Shown piece after piece: positions 31,652 to 42,327 of a stretch of DNA of 64,000 nt. Source of the DNA: Erysipelotrichales bacterium. GTDB lineage: Bacteria > Bacillota_I > Bacilli_A > Erysipelotrichales > Erysipelotrichaceae. The DNA lies in the NCBI GenBank assembly GCA_910575705.1, contig CAJTFG010000001.1, forward strand, positions 62,001 to 126,000, given 5' to 3'. Both the position numbers and the translations under genes were made by a program. The notes under the pieces are model-generated. The model did not search any database, was not told the DNA's origin, and was given only the letters and a program-made list of their open reading frames with translations. Position 1 is the first letter of the stretch. Each line of letters opens with the position of its first letter.

Positions 31652-33745
31652 ATGAAAGAAAAACACCCATTCGATGATTTCGGTATCAACCTATTTAGCG
31701 AAAATATAATGAAAGAACGCCTTCCCCATCCGATCTATGAGAAATGGAAGCACGCTGCGCGCAAAGACGACGCTTTGGATCGCCCTACCGCCGATGCGAT
31801 CGCTCATGCCATGAAAACATGGGCTATGGAAAAAGGCGTTACACATTTCACTCATTGGTTTCAGCCGATGACAGGAAGCACGGCCGAAAAGCATGACAGT
31901 TTCGTAGAGCCCGGTGACCATCAACAGGCAATTTCCCGTTTCTCCGGAAAATCGCTGATCAAAGGGGAAGGAGATGCTTCCAGTTTTCCGACCGGTGGTC
32001 TTCGCGCCACCTTTGAGGCCAGAGGATATACATATTGGGACTGTACTTCTCCGGCATTCATCCGTGAAAATGTTCTTTGCATACCAACGATCTTTGTATC
32101 TTACAACGGTGAGACTCTCGATAAAAAAGCCCCGCTCCTAAAATCCATCGAAGCCATTGATACACAGGCAACGAGAATCGTAAATCTATTTAAAGACAAG
32201 GACATCAAGCGCGTCCTGCCAATGGTAGGCCTTGAACAGGAGTACTTTCTCGTCGACAAATCATTATATGCCAAAAGGAAAGATCTTATGCATACCGGAC
32301 GAACGCTGTTCGGTTCCATGCCGCCCAAAGGACAAGTCTTAAAATCACATTATTTCGGCAGCATTCCGAGCAGAGTATCCGCTTTTATGAAAGAGGTAAA
32401 CGAAGAACTTTGGAAACTGGGCATCTATGCGAAAACGGAACACAACGAGGCAGCGCCTTGTCAGTTTGAGATCGCCCCGTTATTTGCGGAAACGAATATC
32501 GCTGTCGATCAAAACCAAATCATCATGGATGTGCTGAAAAAAACTGCCGATAAGCACCAATTGGCCTGCCTTCTCCATGAAAAACCATTTGATCATGTAA
32601 ACGGCAGCGGCAAACACAACAACTGGTCTTTAGTGACAGACGACGGGCAGAATCTTTTGGAACCGGGAGATCGTCCTCATGAAAACATCCGTTTCCTGCT
32701 GTTTGTATGTGCGGTCATTCAGGCAGTCGATACGTATCCTGAATTACTTCGTATGGCGGCTTCCTGTTATGGAAATGACTATCGCCTAGGCGGACACGAG
32801 GCACCGCCTGCCATTATCAGCATCTGTATGGGCAGCCATTTAGAGGAAATTCTGATGAAGCTGGAAAAAGGCAATGAATCATTGGAAACCAATGTCGATA
32901 CCACACCGTTCAACATCGCCAATCTGGCATATGTACCCAAAGATACCAGTGACCGTAACCGAACATCTCCGTTCGCCTTTACCGGCAACAAATTTGAATT
33001 CCGCATGGTCGGCTCTTCCCGTTCCGCCGCTACGACGAACGTCATCTTAAACACCATCGTCGCAGATTCTTTAAAAAGCATCGGCGATGAACTGCAAAAC
33101 TATAAATACATTGATGATATACGAAAGAAAGCTCTCGCGATATGTCAGGATATCCTCTGCCGACACAAGCGTATCCTGTTCTCCAAAGACGGATATTCAC
33201 AAGACTGGATCAAAGAGGCCAGCCTGCGCGGACTCCCGAATATCGAATGCTACGTCGATTCTATCAGCGCTCTTACATCAGACAAAGCCGTTGCCATGTT
33301 TGAGCGAAATCACGTTTATTCCAAAAACGAATTGGAAGCACGTTCGGAAATCTTGTATGAAGAATTCGTAAAAGAAGTAAAAGTGGAAGCGAGCGTATTG
33401 CTGGATATGAGCAAAAAGATCCTTCTGCCATGCCTCGTTAAAGAACTGAAATTCTATACGGACGCCGCTCATTCACTAGGTGTGGAAAATGCATATTACC
33501 AAAAGAAAATCAAACGAATGGTCAATCTGCTGAACAGTTTTGATGAGAAATATCACATATTGAAACATGCGTTGATCGATCGAAGAAAATGCCACAACAA
33601 CGAGGAAAAAAGCAAATATCTGAATGCTGAAGTTGTCGGAAAAATGAAAGATCTGCGCTGTATTATCGATGCCATAGAGGAACAGGTCAGTGCTGATTCC
33701 TACCCTGTTCCCACATATGAAGATCTATTTACCTCTATACAATAA
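31652..33745 (+). CDS. glnN: type III glutamine synthetase
   Basis: 697 residues, the size of GSIII (about 700; GSI is about 450). Signatures: FTHWFQPMTGSTAEKHDSF, FEARGYTYWDCTSPAFI, MVGLEQEYFLVDK with Mg ligands, EHNEAAPCQFEIAPLF, VNGSGKHNNWSL, GNDYRLGGHEAPPAI and NRTSPFAFTGNKFEFRM. It makes glutamine from glutamate, ammonia and ATP. Stand-alone gene with its own promoter and terminator. No GlnR box was recognised. Confidence 0.95.
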   Translation: MKEKHPFDDFGINLFSENIMKERLPHPIYEKWKHAARKDDALDRPTADAIAHAMKTWAMEKGVTHFTHWFQPMTGSTAEKHDSFVEPGDHQQAISRFSGKSLIKGEGDASSFPTGGLRATFEARGYTYWDCTSPAFIRENVLCIPTIFVSYNGETLDKKAPLLKSIEAIDTQATRIVNLFKDKDIKRVLPMVGLEQEYFLVDKSLYAKRKDLMHTGRTLFGSMPPKGQVLKSHYFGSIPSRVSAFMKEVNEELWKLGIYAKTEHNEAAPCQFEIAPLFAETNIAVDQNQIIMDVLKKTADKHQLACLLHEKPFDHVNGSGKHNNWSLVTDDGQNLLEPGDRPHENIRFLLFVCAVIQAVDTYPELLRMAASCYGNDYRLGGHEAPPAIISICMGSHLEEILMKLEKGNESLETNVDTTPFNIANLAYVPKDTSDRNRTSPFAFTGNKFEFRMVGSSRSAATTNVILNTIVADSLKSIGDELQNYKYIDDIRKKALAICQDILCRHKRILFSKDGYSQDWIKEASLRGLPNIECYVDSISALTSDKAVAMFERNHVYSKNELEARSEILYEEFVKEVKVEASVLLDMSKKILLPCLVKELKFYTDAAHSLGVENAYYQKKIKRMVNLLNSFDEKYHILKHALIDRRKCHNNEEKSKYLNAEVVGKMKDLRCIIDAIEEQVSADSYPVPTYEDLFTSIQ

Positions 33746-34299: not shown

Positions 34300-34400
34300 T
34301 ATCTTGCGATTTCCTGTTCGATGAGATCATATCCCAAGCATAAGCAGGCTATCCCCGTTTGCCCAACGGTTCTCATATTACACAGATTGAAGGATCTTTC
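34300..34400 (-). ncRNA. possible omega (right-end guide) RNA of tnpB copy 1
   Basis: TnpB elements carry a non-coding right-end RNA overlapping or following the 3' end of tnpB. Here the minus strand after the stop has GAGAACCGTTGGGCAAACGG, a hairpin (CCGTT/AACGG), then a structured stretch to about 34318. The exact ends and guide are not determined. Confidence 0.3.
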
Positions 34401-35478
34401 TTCCCTCATGACATAAATTCACGGCCGCATTGTGATCGCGATCCATCACATGACCGCAAGCAGAACAATGAAATATACGCTCTTCTATCGGGAGTTCTTC
34501 TAATACATTCCCACATCGGCTGCATACCCTGCTACTGGCAAAATAGCGGTCGATGCGCAGAAGCTGTTTGCCTTGCTCTTCCAGCTTATATGCTAAGAAG
34601 CTACGGAACATGCCATAGGAATTATCCATCAGGTTTTTCCCCAGATGAAGCGACTTGCTCATCTCCATCATATTCAGATCTTCTACTGCAACCGCATCCC
34701 AGGCATTGGCTATCTGTCTGCTTTGCTTATGCAGAAAATCTCTGCGCTGATGGCTGATCTTTTCATATAAGACTTGAATCCTCTGTTTTTGTTTTATCCA
34801 GTTTCTGCTGTTTTTTTCCATATGCGTGAGCCGTCGCTGCTCCTTTGCCAAACGATGCTCCAGTCTTCGATAATAATGCGGATAATCTCCGCTGTTTCCT
34901 TCACTATCAATATAAAGGCAGCCTTGCGCATAGTCCAAGCCGATCATCCGTTCTACTTTTTTAGGCTGGATTTCAATCTCATACTCATACAGCAAAGAAG
35001 CTTCATAAGTCCCATTGGCACACTGAGACACCGTAACGGATTTCAAGCGGTACTCTTCTGGTATCCCCCGATGCTGCCGGATCTTTACCCATTTCAGCTT
35101 CGGCAGCTTCAAGTAACCATCCTTCAGTTCGATATTATGATGAATCACATTGGTCGTGTAAGATTTTCTGCTCTTATGCTTGCTTTTCCAGCGCGGAAAG
35201 CCGTATCGACGGTCACGAAAAAAATTACGGAATGCCCGCTCTAAATTACGCTGCGCATTGACTAATGCCATACAGTCTACTTCCTTTAAAAACGGATACG
35301 CCTCTTTATAGTACGCCGGTGTCAATATGATATTTTCTTTTGTCTGTTCATAATGCCGTATTTTATCATCCAGCATCTTATTATACAGGAATCGTGTACA
35401 ACCGAAAGTCTTTTCCAAAAGCACCCGCTGCCGTGCATCAGGATACAGTGCAAACTTAAATCCACGTTGCTGTTTCAT
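34378..35478 (-). mobile_element. tnpB: TnpB (IS605/IS200-type OrfB) RNA-guided nuclease gene
   Basis: 366 residues. RuvC residues are all present: Asp in MIGLDYAQGCLYIDSEG, Glu in VAVEDLNMMEM and Asp in GHVMDRDHNAAVNL. The zinc ribbon is CSRCG…CSACG. The N-terminus (QRGFKFALYPDARQRVLLEKTFGCTRFLYNKML) is typical. It appears full length and active. There is no tnpA beside it. Its ATG (35478) lies five bases past the AI-2E permease stop, with an SD (AGGTGA) that includes that stop region, so no left end fits between the two genes. The start 35478 is preferred over GTG 35490 inside the permease gene. Confidence 0.92.
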
Positions 35479-35482
35479 AAGC

Positions 35483-36631
35483 TTATTCACCTATATCATC
35501 AATCTGCATATTCTTTTTCTTCAATCGAAAATAAACCAGTTCCCGTATAGCGGCATAGACGATAGCAAATACCGGAACACCGATGAACATACCGATTACA
35601 CCAAACAAGCCGCCGCCGACGCAAACAGCAAACAAGATCCATATGCTAGGCAATCCGAGGCGATCTCCCAAGATAAGCGGTCCTAAGATATTTCCGTCAA
35701 ACTGCTGAAGTACTAAAATGAATAAAGCAAAATAAACTGCCTCGATCGGCCTGATCAGCAACAAGATGAAAATTCCCGGAACAGCACCGATAAAAGGTCC
35801 GAATACCGGAATCATATTGGTGGTTCCCACGATAACCGACAACAACAGCGCATACGGAAGATTGAGAACCGTCAATCCGATATAACATAAAACACCGATA
35901 ATCAGAGAATCGATCGCCTTACCGATGATAAAGTTATTAAATACATCGTTGGCATCTCTTTGCAGGCGAACAAAATAATCGGCTACTTGTTTGGGAAACA
36001 ATGCGTAATTCGCAACCTTTACATGACGTACGAGCTGTTCCTTATCAATAAGTATGTAAAGCGCAGCCATAATGCTTAAAAAGATATTGAATACACCGCT
36101 TGTCAACTGATAGGAATAAGTCACCATTTTCGGCAGAGCATCAGAAAAAAACGTAGTAAGCCTATTAAAAATATCAAATTCGCCGAATAAAGCAGTGATC
36201 TGATTCACATCCAGCTCATAGCGAACGATCATCTGATTGATGAAAACCTGAAAATCCTCTATATACTGCGGTGCATTTTGCATAAGAGAAAAAATGGAAT
36301 CGATCAATTGCGGGATCAGCAATGCCAGAAACAAGCCGACAACCAAAATTCCTAAAATAACAGCGATCACTGCCGCAAGACTGCGTTTATGATTCGCTTT
36401 TAAAGGCATTTTTTTCAAAACCTTCGCTTCGATGATCATCATCGGCTTATTCAAAAGAAAAGCGATCGCAAAACCGAATATGAACGGCGATATCAAATGG
36501 AACATGGAGGAAAGCCAGCTTGTGATAGTAAAAAAATTAGAAAACAAAAAATACAAAAGGATAGCGATCGCCGCAACGCTCGAATACGTTAAGATCTTTT
36601 TCTGCATGCCATCATCAAACTGAAATTTCAT
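35483..36631 (-). CDS. AI-2E-family (PerM/YtvI-type) membrane permease
   Basis: 382 residues with about eight membrane helices. Features of the AI-2E transporter family are present: a central soluble-looking loop (MQNAPQYIEDFQVFINQMI), FFVRLQRD-type segment YFVRLQRDANDVFNNFIIGKAIDSLIIGVLCYIGL and the C-terminal VVGTTNMIPVFGPFIGAVPGIF…QQFDGNILGPLILG. Substrates of this family differ and none can be assigned. GAGGAGGT precedes the ATG. The next gene downstream is tnpB; the next upstream is nadE, 65 bases away. Confidence 0.85.
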   Translation of the reverse strand: MKFQFDDGMQKKILTYSSVAAIAILLYFLFSNFFTITSWLSSMFHLISPFIFGFAIAFLLNKPMMIIEAKVLKKMPLKANHKRSLAAVIAVILGILVVGLFLALLIPQLIDSIFSLMQNAPQYIEDFQVFINQMIVRYELDVNQITALFGEFDIFNRLTTFFSDALPKMVTYSYQLTSGVFNIFLSIMAALYILIDKEQLVRHVKVANYALFPKQVADYFVRLQRDANDVFNNFIIGKAIDSLIIGVLCYIGLTVLNLPYALLLSVIVGTTNMIPVFGPFIGAVPGIFILLLIRPIEAVYFALFILVLQQFDGNILGPLILGDRLGLPSIWILFAVCVGGGLFGVIGMFIGVPVFAIVYAAIRELVYFRLKKKNMQIDDIGE

Positions 36632-36696: not shown

Positions 36697-38355
36697 TCAC
36701 TTTTTTAAATGAAGAATCTGTTCCTTTAATTCCGAATACAACGCAAGATCACCAGCCGGCTGCATCTCTGTCCTATTGCCGAAAGCATTCTCGGATATCA
36801 TGATGATAGGAGGCGTCTGCAATCTCTTAAAGGCATTCCGCCGCATCGTGGATATAAACCAATCCAAATCCGCAATAAACGCATACGGATCATCAAGCTG
36901 GTAATACTTCATCCACGTAGCGATCTCACTTTCCCAGATGCTTCCATCCAAATAAGATCTCATAAACTGCTCAATCGTCATATCTTTCTGTAGATGCTCT
37001 ACGAGATAATCATGATAAAACCATTTCATAGGATCCAACTGATCGTCTTTTAATTCCGCACTCGGCGGCATTTCCCATGATATCGCACCACCGGAAAAGG
37101 AAGGAAGAAGAGAAGCCGGAATAACTTCTTTCTCATAACGCGCATTGATCTCATGCGCTAGATCAAACAACTGCACTTTTGTAAGATCACCTATGAGCCC
37201 TAACGCTCCCACTGCATCTCCATACAAGGTACAATATCCCAAGGCAACTTCGACCTTATTTCCGTTGTTGCAAACGACTCCATGATGGATTTGGGCAAAT
37301 GTAGATAACAGATGACCGCGTATCCTTGCCTGAATATTCTCCGTAACTAATGTTTCCCGATCTTTTTCATGATACCCATACTCCTCCAGAACTTGCGCCG
37401 TAGCGTTCGTAAGCTTTTCAATACTGCCGCTATGCAACGATATCCCTAAGGCTTCCGCTTCCTGACGAGCATTGGCGATCGTAATGGAGCGATTGTAAGA
37501 ACTGCTCAGCTGATAGGCAAAGATTCGCTCTTTTCCCAACGCATATGTCAGAAGAGCGGCGTTGACGCTGGAATCAAGGCCTCCACTCAAGCCGATGATC
37601 CATGGACTGTTTCCACCCAAAACCTGCTCATCATACTCCCGAACAGCCATACATAAAGCATCCATCATAGAAGGTGTCTGCGGCTGCATCACTTGATCGG
37701 ATCGTGTATCCACAAGCGCATATGCCTCTTGGAATAACGGTGCTTCATATAACAGATTGCGGTTCACCACCACACGGCTTCCTCCCGGATATACGACGAC
37801 ATTTTTCCCTATCGCAGCAATTCCTACTGAATTAACATAAACATAGCTCCCTTTAACTTCCCATGTTTGATCATATAAGTACGGCTGTGCATCGATGTTC
37901 AGATTCAAATCCGCGATCTGCAGTTCATCATGAAAATTCAGCGCTATTACATCATCCCCGAATTCGATAGCACTTTGAATATCCTGCTCGCAAAAATAAC
38001 GGCTGTCCTGATATAAAAAACTATCCGCATTCTTTTTCACACGCATATGCGTCTGACGATCTTTCGCATAAAACGCACAATTAAACAGACGACCGCCGCG
38101 ATAACGTATATTCCCCCAAACAATCGCAATCTTATCACTGTAATCGAGGATCCTGTCGTTAAAGCTATCCACATAACGGCACCATTCTCTATCGTTCCAG
38201 CAATCACCCAGCAAATATCCACTTACGGCATTTTGCGGAAACATAACGAGATCTGCCTCATCACGGATCGCACGTTCTATCTTATCAGTCATATATTGAA
38301 AATTTTCTTCACATCGTCCATTCATCACCGGCATTGTCACTACTGCAATCTTCAT
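36697..38355 (-). CDS. nadE: NAD synthetase fused to a degenerate glutaminase domain
   Basis: 552 residues. The C-terminal synthetase is intact: P-loop IIGLSGGLDSSVNAALL (about 250-265), GHLLSTFAQIHHG, LGYCTLYGDAVGALGLIGDLTK and PPSAELKDDQ. The N-terminal nitrilase-fold domain normally supplies ammonia from glutamine by a Glu-Lys-Cys triad. Here the Glu site (FPEL) reads FPQN (Q41), a Lys remains (K107 or K108), and the ICED motif with the nucleophile reads NFHD (F141). So it probably cannot use glutamine and would depend on free ammonia. The start at 38355 has AGGAGGCG upstream. Confidence 0.88.
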   Translation of the reverse strand: MKIAVVTMPVMNGRCEENFQYMTDKIERAIRDEADLVMFPQNAVSGYLLGDCWNDREWCRYVDSFNDRILDYSDKIAIVWGNIRYRGGRLFNCAFYAKDRQTHMRVKKNADSFLYQDSRYFCEQDIQSAIEFGDDVIALNFHDELQIADLNLNIDAQPYLYDQTWEVKGSYVYVNSVGIAAIGKNVVVYPGGSRVVVNRNLLYEAPLFQEAYALVDTRSDQVMQPQTPSMMDALCMAVREYDEQVLGGNSPWIIGLSGGLDSSVNAALLTYALGKERIFAYQLSSSYNRSITIANARQEAEALGISLHSGSIEKLTNATAQVLEEYGYHEKDRETLVTENIQARIRGHLLSTFAQIHHGVVCNNGNKVEVALGYCTLYGDAVGALGLIGDLTKVQLFDLAHEINARYEKEVIPASLLPSFSGGAISWEMPPSAELKDDQLDPMKWFYHDYLVEHLQKDMTIEQFMRSYLDGSIWESEIATWMKYYQLDDPYAFIADLDWFISTMRRNAFKRLQTPPIIMISENAFGNRTEMQPAGDLALYSELKEQILHLKK

Positions 38356-38456
38356 AATACGCCTCCTATTTATCATACTACATATACCATAAGTGTACCA
38401 TTATTCCATCAGTGTTACCAATTATTTTTTATGATATACTATATAGGAAGGAAGTG

Positions 38457-39191
38457 ATGTCATCCATGAAACAACCCCATATGCTCGAAGGGAATATATC
38501 TGTAAAAGCTGCCTTGCTGGCAAAGCGAAGACCCTTTTACAAACTCATCGTCGATATAAAAAAAAGAGACAGAGATACTGCTTTCATATTAAAAGAAGCG
38601 CAAAAAAGAAAGATCATCATCGAGAAGAAAAACCGTTTTGACATCGATGAGCTGGCAGATGGAAAAACGCATGGAGGTCTCATCGCCTATGTTGGAGAAC
38701 GAACTTTCGACGATTTGCCAGATACCGGTCATGAACATTGCCTTCTTGCGATCATAGAAGGAATAGAGGATCCTTTTAATTTCGGCCAGATCATCCGAAC
38801 ACTGTATGCCGCCGGCTGTAAAGGCGTCATCCTTCCGCCGCGCAACTGGTCATCTGCGGCAAAAACGATCGCAAAATCGTCTGCAGGCGCCAGCGAATAT
38901 ATTCCCATGATCATTGCCGAAGATATGAATAAATTATGTGCAGAACTGAAAGAAAGACAGTTTTCCATCGTTTGCGGCGATCGAAAAAACGCCGTCTCTC
39001 TCTATGACTACCGCTTCCCTAACCGCACTTGTATCGCTATCGGCGGAGAAATGCGCGGTCTTTCAAAAAGCGTACAGGAGTACAGCGACCAAAATATCTA
39101 TATTCCCTATGAAAATGATTTCCGCAATTCTCTGAATGCGGTAAGCGCAGCTGCCGTCATCGCCTTTGAATTCGTAAGGCAACAAATATAA
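38457..39191 (+). CDS. TrmH/SpoU-family RNA 2'-O-methyltransferase
   Basis: About 244 residues. The SPOUT signature motifs are seen: IEDPFNFGQIIRTLYAAGCKGVILP (motif 1, N-F-G-x-I-x-R), CIAIGGEMRGLSKSVQEYSD (motif 2, GxExxG) and IPYENDFRNSLNAVSAAAVIAFEFVR (motif 3, SLNVSxA). An N-terminal substrate-binding domain precedes (EGNISVKAALLAKRRPFYKL). Target, rRNA or tRNA, unknown. ATG 38457 follows AAGGAAG closely; ATG 38466 is an alternative. Single plus-strand gene, divergent from nadE. Confidence 0.87.
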   Translation: MSSMKQPHMLEGNISVKAALLAKRRPFYKLIVDIKKRDRDTAFILKEAQKRKIIIEKKNRFDIDELADGKTHGGLIAYVGERTFDDLPDTGHEHCLLAIIEGIEDPFNFGQIIRTLYAAGCKGVILPPRNWSSAAKTIAKSSAGASEYIPMIIAEDMNKLCAELKERQFSIVCGDRKNAVSLYDYRFPNRTCIAIGGEMRGLSKSVQEYSDQNIYIPYENDFRNSLNAVSAAAVIAFEFVRQQI

Positions 39192-41355: not shown

Positions 41356-42327
41356 TTATACCAGCAGTACCATACCTTTGCTGTTAATCAAGCGAATACG
41401 CCTGTTTCTGAAAATTTCATTGCCGAAAACACCATCACACACGATCTCCGGTAATATGTTACAATTACCGCTCATCATATTATGAATGTGTATATCAGCT
41501 CGATACAGCGAAAACCGCATATCTTTATATAAACGAAGATGCATTTTCTCAGCGCCATGAACACCAAAACCAACCGCTGTTATTTCCCCGTGTTCCACAT
41601 ATCGCAAACGCTCAGCACTCTCCATGGAAAACCAACTGTGCCTAGACCCACTATCAAAGCCCATTTTTAACAGATTGCCTCTTTCATCTTCTGCCAAAAA
41701 TATAGGAAACAAACCACTTACCATATTTTCATAAGCAAAGCGAAAACGATTTTTCATAAATTTCAGCTGCATAGCTACGGTATCCAGCTCAAAATCAAAG
41801 TTTCTTAAAATATCCCATCCTAAGATCCCATCAAACCGGAAAATATCTACATCCGCAAAGCGCAATGAAAAATCATGCTTATCCAAACACAATACCGGAA
41901 CATTCTCATAAGCAGCTTGACCGAACACCAAAGAACGCAGTACGCATCCTTTCAGCTCTTTTCTCGTTCCCGAAGCAGCGCCGACCTCGATACTGCCGTT
42001 TGACTTGGAAATCCCCAAGCGCACCATCATATCGTGACGTATGGAAGATAACTGCGCCCCAGTGTCTATCACAAAACGGCAAGCCACACCATTTACATTG
42101 ACATCACATAAATAAAGCCCGAACATATTTTTATATAAGGGTAATGAAAAATCTTCATGCGGTTTATGAAAAATGATATTCAGTGAATGATCCGCCAATT
42201 GCCTCTGCGCTTCTTCCAAAGTATCCTTTTGATGCAGCAATTCTCCTCGGTACTGCTCATACAACGGATGCACACTGGGATCACACTCTGCCCGTGTCCT
42301 CGTTTTACAATAATGAAGGAGCGCCAT
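41356..42327 (-). CDS. retropepsin-like aspartic protease with two DTG-type motifs
   Basis: 323 residues. Two aspartic-protease-like motifs: FVIDTGAQLSSI followed by the flap-type stretch GAASGTRKELKGCVLRSLVFG, and later MGFDSGSRHSWFSM. Between them runs DGILGWDILRNFDFELDTVAMQL, a hallmark of clan AA proteases (hydrophobic-hydrophobic-G psi-loop), repeated near the end as DGVFGNEIFRNRRIRL. So it looks like a bilobal, pepsin-like arrangement in one bacterial chain. The first 100 residues are helical (HQKDTLEEAQRQLADH). No signal peptide. GAGGTGATAGG precedes the ATG, and TGCTATAAT lies upstream. Confidence 0.8.
   Translation of the reverse strand: MALLHYCKTRTRAECDPSVHPLYEQYRGELLHQKDTLEEAQRQLADHSLNIIFHKPHEDFSLPLYKNMFGLYLCDVNVNGVACRFVIDTGAQLSSIRHDMMVRLGISKSNGSIEVGAASGTRKELKGCVLRSLVFGQAAYENVPVLCLDKHDFSLRFADVDIFRFDGILGWDILRNFDFELDTVAMQLKFMKNRFRFAYENMVSGLFPIFLAEDERGNLLKMGFDSGSRHSWFSMESAERLRYVEHGEITAVGFGVHGAEKMHLRLYKDMRFSLYRADIHIHNMMSGNCNILPEIVCDGVFGNEIFRNRRIRLINSKGMVLLV

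Follow-up and report, generated by a model that had tools for sequence, protein, structure and literature searches.

The nadE locus and its single NAD synthetase gene

The stretch of DNA that we analyzed, called the window here, comprises 64,000 nucleotides from an Erysipelotrichales genome and carries a nadE-like gene on its minus strand, together with the following features.

36697..38355, minus strand: nadE-like gene, 552 aa, the single NadE of the genome
38362..38367, minus strand: ribosome-binding site AGGAGG, supporting the ATG at 38355
37687..38355, minus strand: dead nitrilase/glutaminase domain, residues 1-223 (Pfam CN_hydrolase 18.4 bits, cut-off 23.2)
36697..37671, minus strand: intact NAD synthetase domain
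37567..37587, minus strand: pyrophosphate loop SGGLDSS of the synthetase active site, residues 257-263
35483..36631, minus strand: AI-2E family transporter directly downstream of nadE, a neighbor conserved in most of the clade
38412..39191, plus strand: divergent SpoU-type rRNA methyltransferase (rlmB-like), the same neighbor in the clade, including Merdibacter and the genus of genome G067

The open reading frame consists of 552 codons followed by TGA. The AGGAGG sequence lies 6 bases upstream of the ATG at 38355 and homologues also start with MKIA, so the gene, frame, strand, and start given in a preliminary description of this DNA were right. An alternative start in the list of open reading frames (ATG 38376) was ruled out by the spacing of AGGAGG and by the MKIA starts of relatives. 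Residues are numbered from the Met at 38355 (552 aa); a 559-aa numbering was also used for the structural model.

The synthetase half scored 115 bits against PF02540 (NAD_synthase, cut-off 21) and 108.9 bits against TIGR00552 (cut-off 63.65), and its motifs were unchanged, in agreement with the earlier description of this half as intact. A domain above the curated cut-off along with an SGGxDS loop places the protein in the NAD synthetase family. The score against the NCBIfam equivalog NF010588 (205.5 bits) was below the cut-off of 479, but this shortfall is not diagnostic of triad loss, as an intact Holdemania enzyme also falls below it (312 versus 479). A search of the whole 1.85-Mb genome with PF02540 revealed one NadE, the two other matches (frames of 519 and 411 aa) being weak.

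The genome also encodes NadD (TIGR00482) and the nicotinate phosphoribosyltransferase PncB (NAPRTase, TIGR01513), both above cut-off, and PnuC was not found in it. The Francisella NadE homologue offers a precedent (PMC3376133) for assigning such a protein as an NMN synthetase or another amidating enzyme instead of an NAD synthetase; we consider this assignment most improbable here, since a single NadE accompanied by NadD above cut-off would leave NaAD with no other outlet, and the synthetase half most resembles type F NadE.

Three other genes were noted nearby. A type III glutamine synthetase (31652-33745, plus strand) is ∼3 kb from nadE and has homologues near nadE at three other loci (L117, L174, and L154), a TnpB-like protein (OrfB_IS605, Cas12f1-like TNB domain; 34378-35490, minus strand) adjoins the AI-2E transporter, and a protein with a retropepsin-like aspartyl protease domain (41359-42327, minus strand) occurs near nadE across the clade.

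Catalytic residues and predicted fold of the former glutaminase domain

The positions of interest within the N-terminal domain are listed below.

38233..38235, minus strand: Gln41 replacing the catalytic Glu (FPQN for FPE)
38098..38103, minus strand: Tyr85-Arg86, a newly fixed clade-specific pair
38035..38037, minus strand: Lys107, a clade-invariant residue occupying the catalytic Lys position
37930..37938, minus strand: Asn140-Phe141-His142, with His142 at the position of the nucleophile Cys
37891..37893, minus strand: Asp155, clade-invariant, replacing a Ser invariant in intact enzymes (presumed glutamine-binding)

A MAFFT alignment with 33 relatives, including sister enzymes from Holdemania, Anaerorhabdus, Traorella, and others, bore out two substitutions already read from the sequence in the preliminary description: Gln41 in place of the Glu of FPE, with which profile-profile comparison agreed, and NFHD (residues 140-143) in place of (I/V)CED. 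The profile alignment with intact glutamine-dependent NadE that had been proposed as a check, run against intact sister enzymes, yielded P ∼100% and E 5e-175, and agreed at FPQ and at the Lys. Profile-profile comparison placed ICEDLW opposite a gap, and it is the MAFFT alignment, together with the order of strands in the predicted model, that sets the register around the Cys; no Cys is found at the nucleophile site under either register. In a first alignment the catalytic Lys fell in a gap and seemed deleted, a reading that was overturned in favor of Lys107 by a larger alignment and by profile comparison. Where type F enzymes have their E-K-C triad, the window protein thus has Gln41, Lys107, and His142. 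The profile alignment and the fold both identify a fused N-terminal nitrilase-like domain, as in type F.

Among 46 relatives that keep the Cys, Glu was found wherever position 41 was present and Gln in none. The nucleophile position is variable in the window's clade (G/H/K/Q), and Asn140 and Phe141 are invariant and clade-specific. Several residues that are near-invariant in the 46 intact enzymes have disappeared from most dead lineages. Among them are the Cys, a Glu and a Trp that come after it, and three residues (Ser, Lys, and Arg) of an SxSPWxxNKExSR segment. We take this segment, by reference to the Mycobacterium tuberculosis NadE, to be the glutamine site; the glutamine-binding Ser, Lys, and Arg are lost in the window protein. 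Positions in the synthetase half were lost likewise, most clearly a Pro and an Arg of the C-terminal loop. This loop of NadE forms part of the interface between the domains (PMC3376133).

Ahead of the synthetase motif the protein is 69 residues shorter than intact enzymes; deletions of ∼15 residues after the nucleophile strand and ∼14 after the next strand were apparent. AlphaFold2, provided with a 30-sequence alignment, returned a model with a mean pLDDT of 89.9 and a pTM of 0.90, in which most of the dead half exceeded 90 and the strand of the old nucleophile (residues 142-148, 559-aa numbering) ran directly into the next strand. The best Foldseek matches in the PDB were glutamine-dependent NAD synthetases, followed by nitrilases and amidases over ∼250 alignment columns. 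The dead glutaminase half is thus predicted to be a folded domain, not junk.

We considered whether the domain could still be an amidase, either acting on some other amide or using C59 or C122 as a nucleophile in a new position. C59 occurs in 17 of the 17 clade members and K107 is retained, as such an enzyme might show; however, C59 is also present in about a quarter of the intact enzymes and is accompanied by neither a Glu base, which is now Gln, nor a glutamine-binding site, the requisite Ser, Lys, and Arg being absent. C122, which the preliminary description had raised as a possible rescue nucleophile, proved not to be conserved even among close relatives. With the segments that follow the nucleophile and the succeeding strand also deleted, residual amidase activity appears very unlikely.

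Repeated loss of the glutaminase and the likely nitrogen donor

Relatives at E ≤ 1e-25 were present in 85 of 273 genomes of the same family, whereas among 395 genomes sampled from the class there was no whole-protein match at E ≤ 1e-40 outside the family. A profile of the window's dead domain matched 17 genomes at E 1e-85 or better, with the next at 1e-41. With TIGR00552, the dead-domain gene was the sole NadE above cut-off in 29 of the dead-lineage genomes scanned (that of the window and 28 others). Intact proteins are 593-668 aa in length and dead ones 526-583 aa, when fused and contig-cut genes are excluded, and among the dead NadEs examined that have an intact synthetase half the domain was only trimmed and never deleted.

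At least five live/dead changes are needed on a tree built in careful mode from the synthetase half alone of 63 sequences; four of these are forced by well-supported branches, a single dead clade appeared in 0 of 200 bootstrap trees, and one dead clade was rejected by the AU test (p = 7e-5). As the tree is unrooted, every change can be counted as a loss only on the assumption that the Cys-Glu-Lys site, once gone, does not re-evolve. Some sisters of the same genus differ in state: G263 is live and its counterpart G010 dead, G247 is live and its counterparts G245 and G246 are dead, and genus g63 includes both kinds. By these sequence comparisons, loss of the glutaminase residues with no domain deletion is convergent and took place about five times in the family. 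Additional single-domain NadE genes were observed in G246 and G258, where contamination is possible. Close NadE relatives were also encountered on contigs labeled Eggerthellaceae or Coriobacteriaceae (L148, L150, and L155-L172; metagenome-assembled, many from ruminants), which suggests either cross-phylum transfer or misbinning.

The known NadE forms are fused, clustered, remote, and single-domain (PMC3376133), and the same study reported that the fused enzymes characterized up to that point used glutamine and sorted NadE into glutamine and ammonia users by the presence or absence of the glutaminase domain. None of those forms is a fused enzyme with a dead G-domain. The window NadE has the domain order and synthetase motifs of type F NadE-Gln (Holdemania-type sisters; PDB 5kha, 4f4h, and 3n05), but its G-domain is 69 residues shorter and lacks the triad Glu and Cys along with the residues that bind glutamine; as judged from its sequence, the enzyme is a descendant of type F without the catalytic residues of that type. 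It does not belong to the two-subunit types C and R. Nor is it of type N, which has no glutaminase domain, for here the domain is present and folded in the model. Like a type N enzyme, it is expected to use free ammonia, and the genome has no glutaminase for it; unlike type N, it keeps a folded G-domain under selection, and its ancestry lies in type F rather than in the single-domain branch.

The Thermus kind of NadE has a separate glutaminase subunit. No separate nitrilase-type G-subunit was found in the window genome, where the sole CN_hydrolase match is the NadE gene itself. As there is one NadE, PncB and NadD are present, and no stand-alone nitrilase exists, free ammonia is the likely nitrogen donor of the window enzyme. 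The Amt ammonium transporter was not found in the genome, and the ammonia would therefore have to come from diffusion or metabolism. The preliminary description had envisaged both a need for ammonia and a domain kept as scaffold; the first part is likely and well supported, fitting a genome with one NadE, an upstream pathway (PncB and NadD) that depends on it, no PnuC, and no other CN-hydrolase, while scaffolding would be only a portion of the explanation, for the reasons given below.

Selection on the dead domain and its possible roles

Pairwise dN/dS values for the dead domain were 0.03-0.16 in the window's clade, g24, and g20, compared with 0.04-0.2 in intact pairs, and the domain persists across nine genera. 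The large deletions and the variable nucleophile position might indicate a relic under relaxed selection that is heading for loss, and in lineage g21 the dead domain does evolve fast (dN/dS ∼0.3), from which we conclude that plain decay also occurs. Passive decay is nevertheless an unlikely account of the window's domain, because purifying selection in its clade, g24, and g20 is as strong as in intact enzymes, the predicted fold is of high confidence, and nine genera represent a long persistence. Substitution patterns indicate that the dead domain is retained and usually under purifying selection.

Thirteen dead-domain positions are newly fixed in the clade, defined as residues shared by at least 16 of 17 members and rare in intact enzymes: Q41, C59, D63, A77, V79, Y85, R86, V106, I130, N140, F141, N151, and D155. 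Several coincide with, or adjoin, the positions once occupied by the Glu, the Cys, and the residues that bound glutamine. K107 was flagged as well, but it was out of register with the catalytic Lys in this alignment and is not new; V106 may suffer from the same register problem.

The gene of genus g70 (Merdibacter) and of genome G067 retains the dead domain, with FPQN, RYR, and ALNF(H/K)D, and its synthetase half has no P-loop and no Pfam NAD_synthase match. These genomes possess another NadE of ∼650 aa with intact FPE, CED, and SGGLDS motifs. The decayed gene is taken to be the original locus because its rlmB-like neighbor is the same as in the window. Identity between the three Merdibacter species is 60-68% in the dead half, 24-42% in the former synthetase half, and mostly 64-74% in the neighboring genes, one of which reaches 95-97%. 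The Merdibacter dead half exhibited pN of 0.21-0.25 versus pS of 0.73-0.85, and the AlphaFold model was reliable for this half only, the remainder having a pLDDT of ∼28-46. It is unusual for a fused enzyme to conserve its dead half, as at this locus, while the formerly live half decays. In Dielma fastidiosa, a dead-domain gene (L126) occurs in the same genome as an intact NadE, and the dead copy has a long synthetase branch. Both cases fit a domain whose value would be independent of the synthetase.

A purely structural explanation holds that the domain is kept solely for folding, oligomerization, or active-site shielding of the synthetase and has no job of its own. It accounts for the trimming with no deletion in the dead lineages examined that have an intact synthetase half, and for the kept C-terminal interface region, and we regard it as possible though doubtful. 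Scaffolding of the synthetase alone appears insufficient because the clade has 13 newly fixed residues, several at the former active site, and because Merdibacter conserves the dead half after P-loop loss, with no working synthetase half to support.

The sequences themselves show that the triad and the glutamine site have been lost from a single-copy gene whose synthetase half is intact, that such losses recurred, and that the dead half is constrained; the Merdibacter loci and newly fixed residues favor a second role for the dead domain in the clade. Our preferred reading, which we hold with considerable confidence, is that of an ammonia-dependent NAD synthetase in which selection maintains the dead domain, in part as a scaffold and, in the clade, probably also for a second, noncatalytic role. 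The enzyme would amidate nicotinate adenine dinucleotide with free ammonia; the former glutaminase domain would no longer bind or hydrolyze glutamine but would be kept as a folded module that presumably still packs on the synthetase in a scaffold role. In the clade, the emptied active site may have been refitted with Q41, N140, F141, N151, D155, Y85, and R86 around K107, and the refitted site could perform an extra noncatalytic job, such as ligand sensing or partner binding. More tentatively, at somewhat less than even odds, the clade's domain may be a noncatalytic sensor or binding module in the former active site, independent enough that once another NadE had been acquired, selection kept the module and the synthetase half decayed; this would have happened in Merdibacter and perhaps, as a separate event, in the genus of G067.

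A comparable situation is known in vertebrate CPS1, which retains a glutaminase-like domain with a Cys-to-Ser substitution and uses external ammonia (PMC4655335; PMC7657897), with convergence described for fish CPS III (PMC7657897). The cases would be analogous in the retention of an inactive glutaminase-like domain, the replacement of its nucleophile Cys, and repeated evolution, with ammonia use predicted for the window enzyme. The folds are unrelated, as the CPS1 glutaminase has a class I triad and is not a nitrilase, and the case described here is distinct in being bacterial, in concerning NAD synthesis, in involving about five losses within one family, and in having a dead half that outlives the synthetase half. 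We looked, in a body of literature covering few subscription journals, for papers on degenerate glutaminase domains in NadE, on pseudoenzymes of the nitrilase type, and on the NAD synthetase of Erysipelotrichaceae; none described such an enzyme. A domain-presence rule would misassign dozens of genomes here, named gut species included. The repeated losses, some between congeneric species, supply live/dead pairs for probing roles of the glutaminase domain besides making ammonia.

Two fusions were seen among the intact relatives. The intact NadE of D. fastidiosa (L145:7998-10277) has a C-terminal NUDIX fusion in one open reading frame, and an 859-aa frame at L136:3799-6375 combines a NadD-like nucleotidyltransferase (PF01467) with an intact glutamine-dependent NadE, joining two consecutive steps of the NAD pathway.
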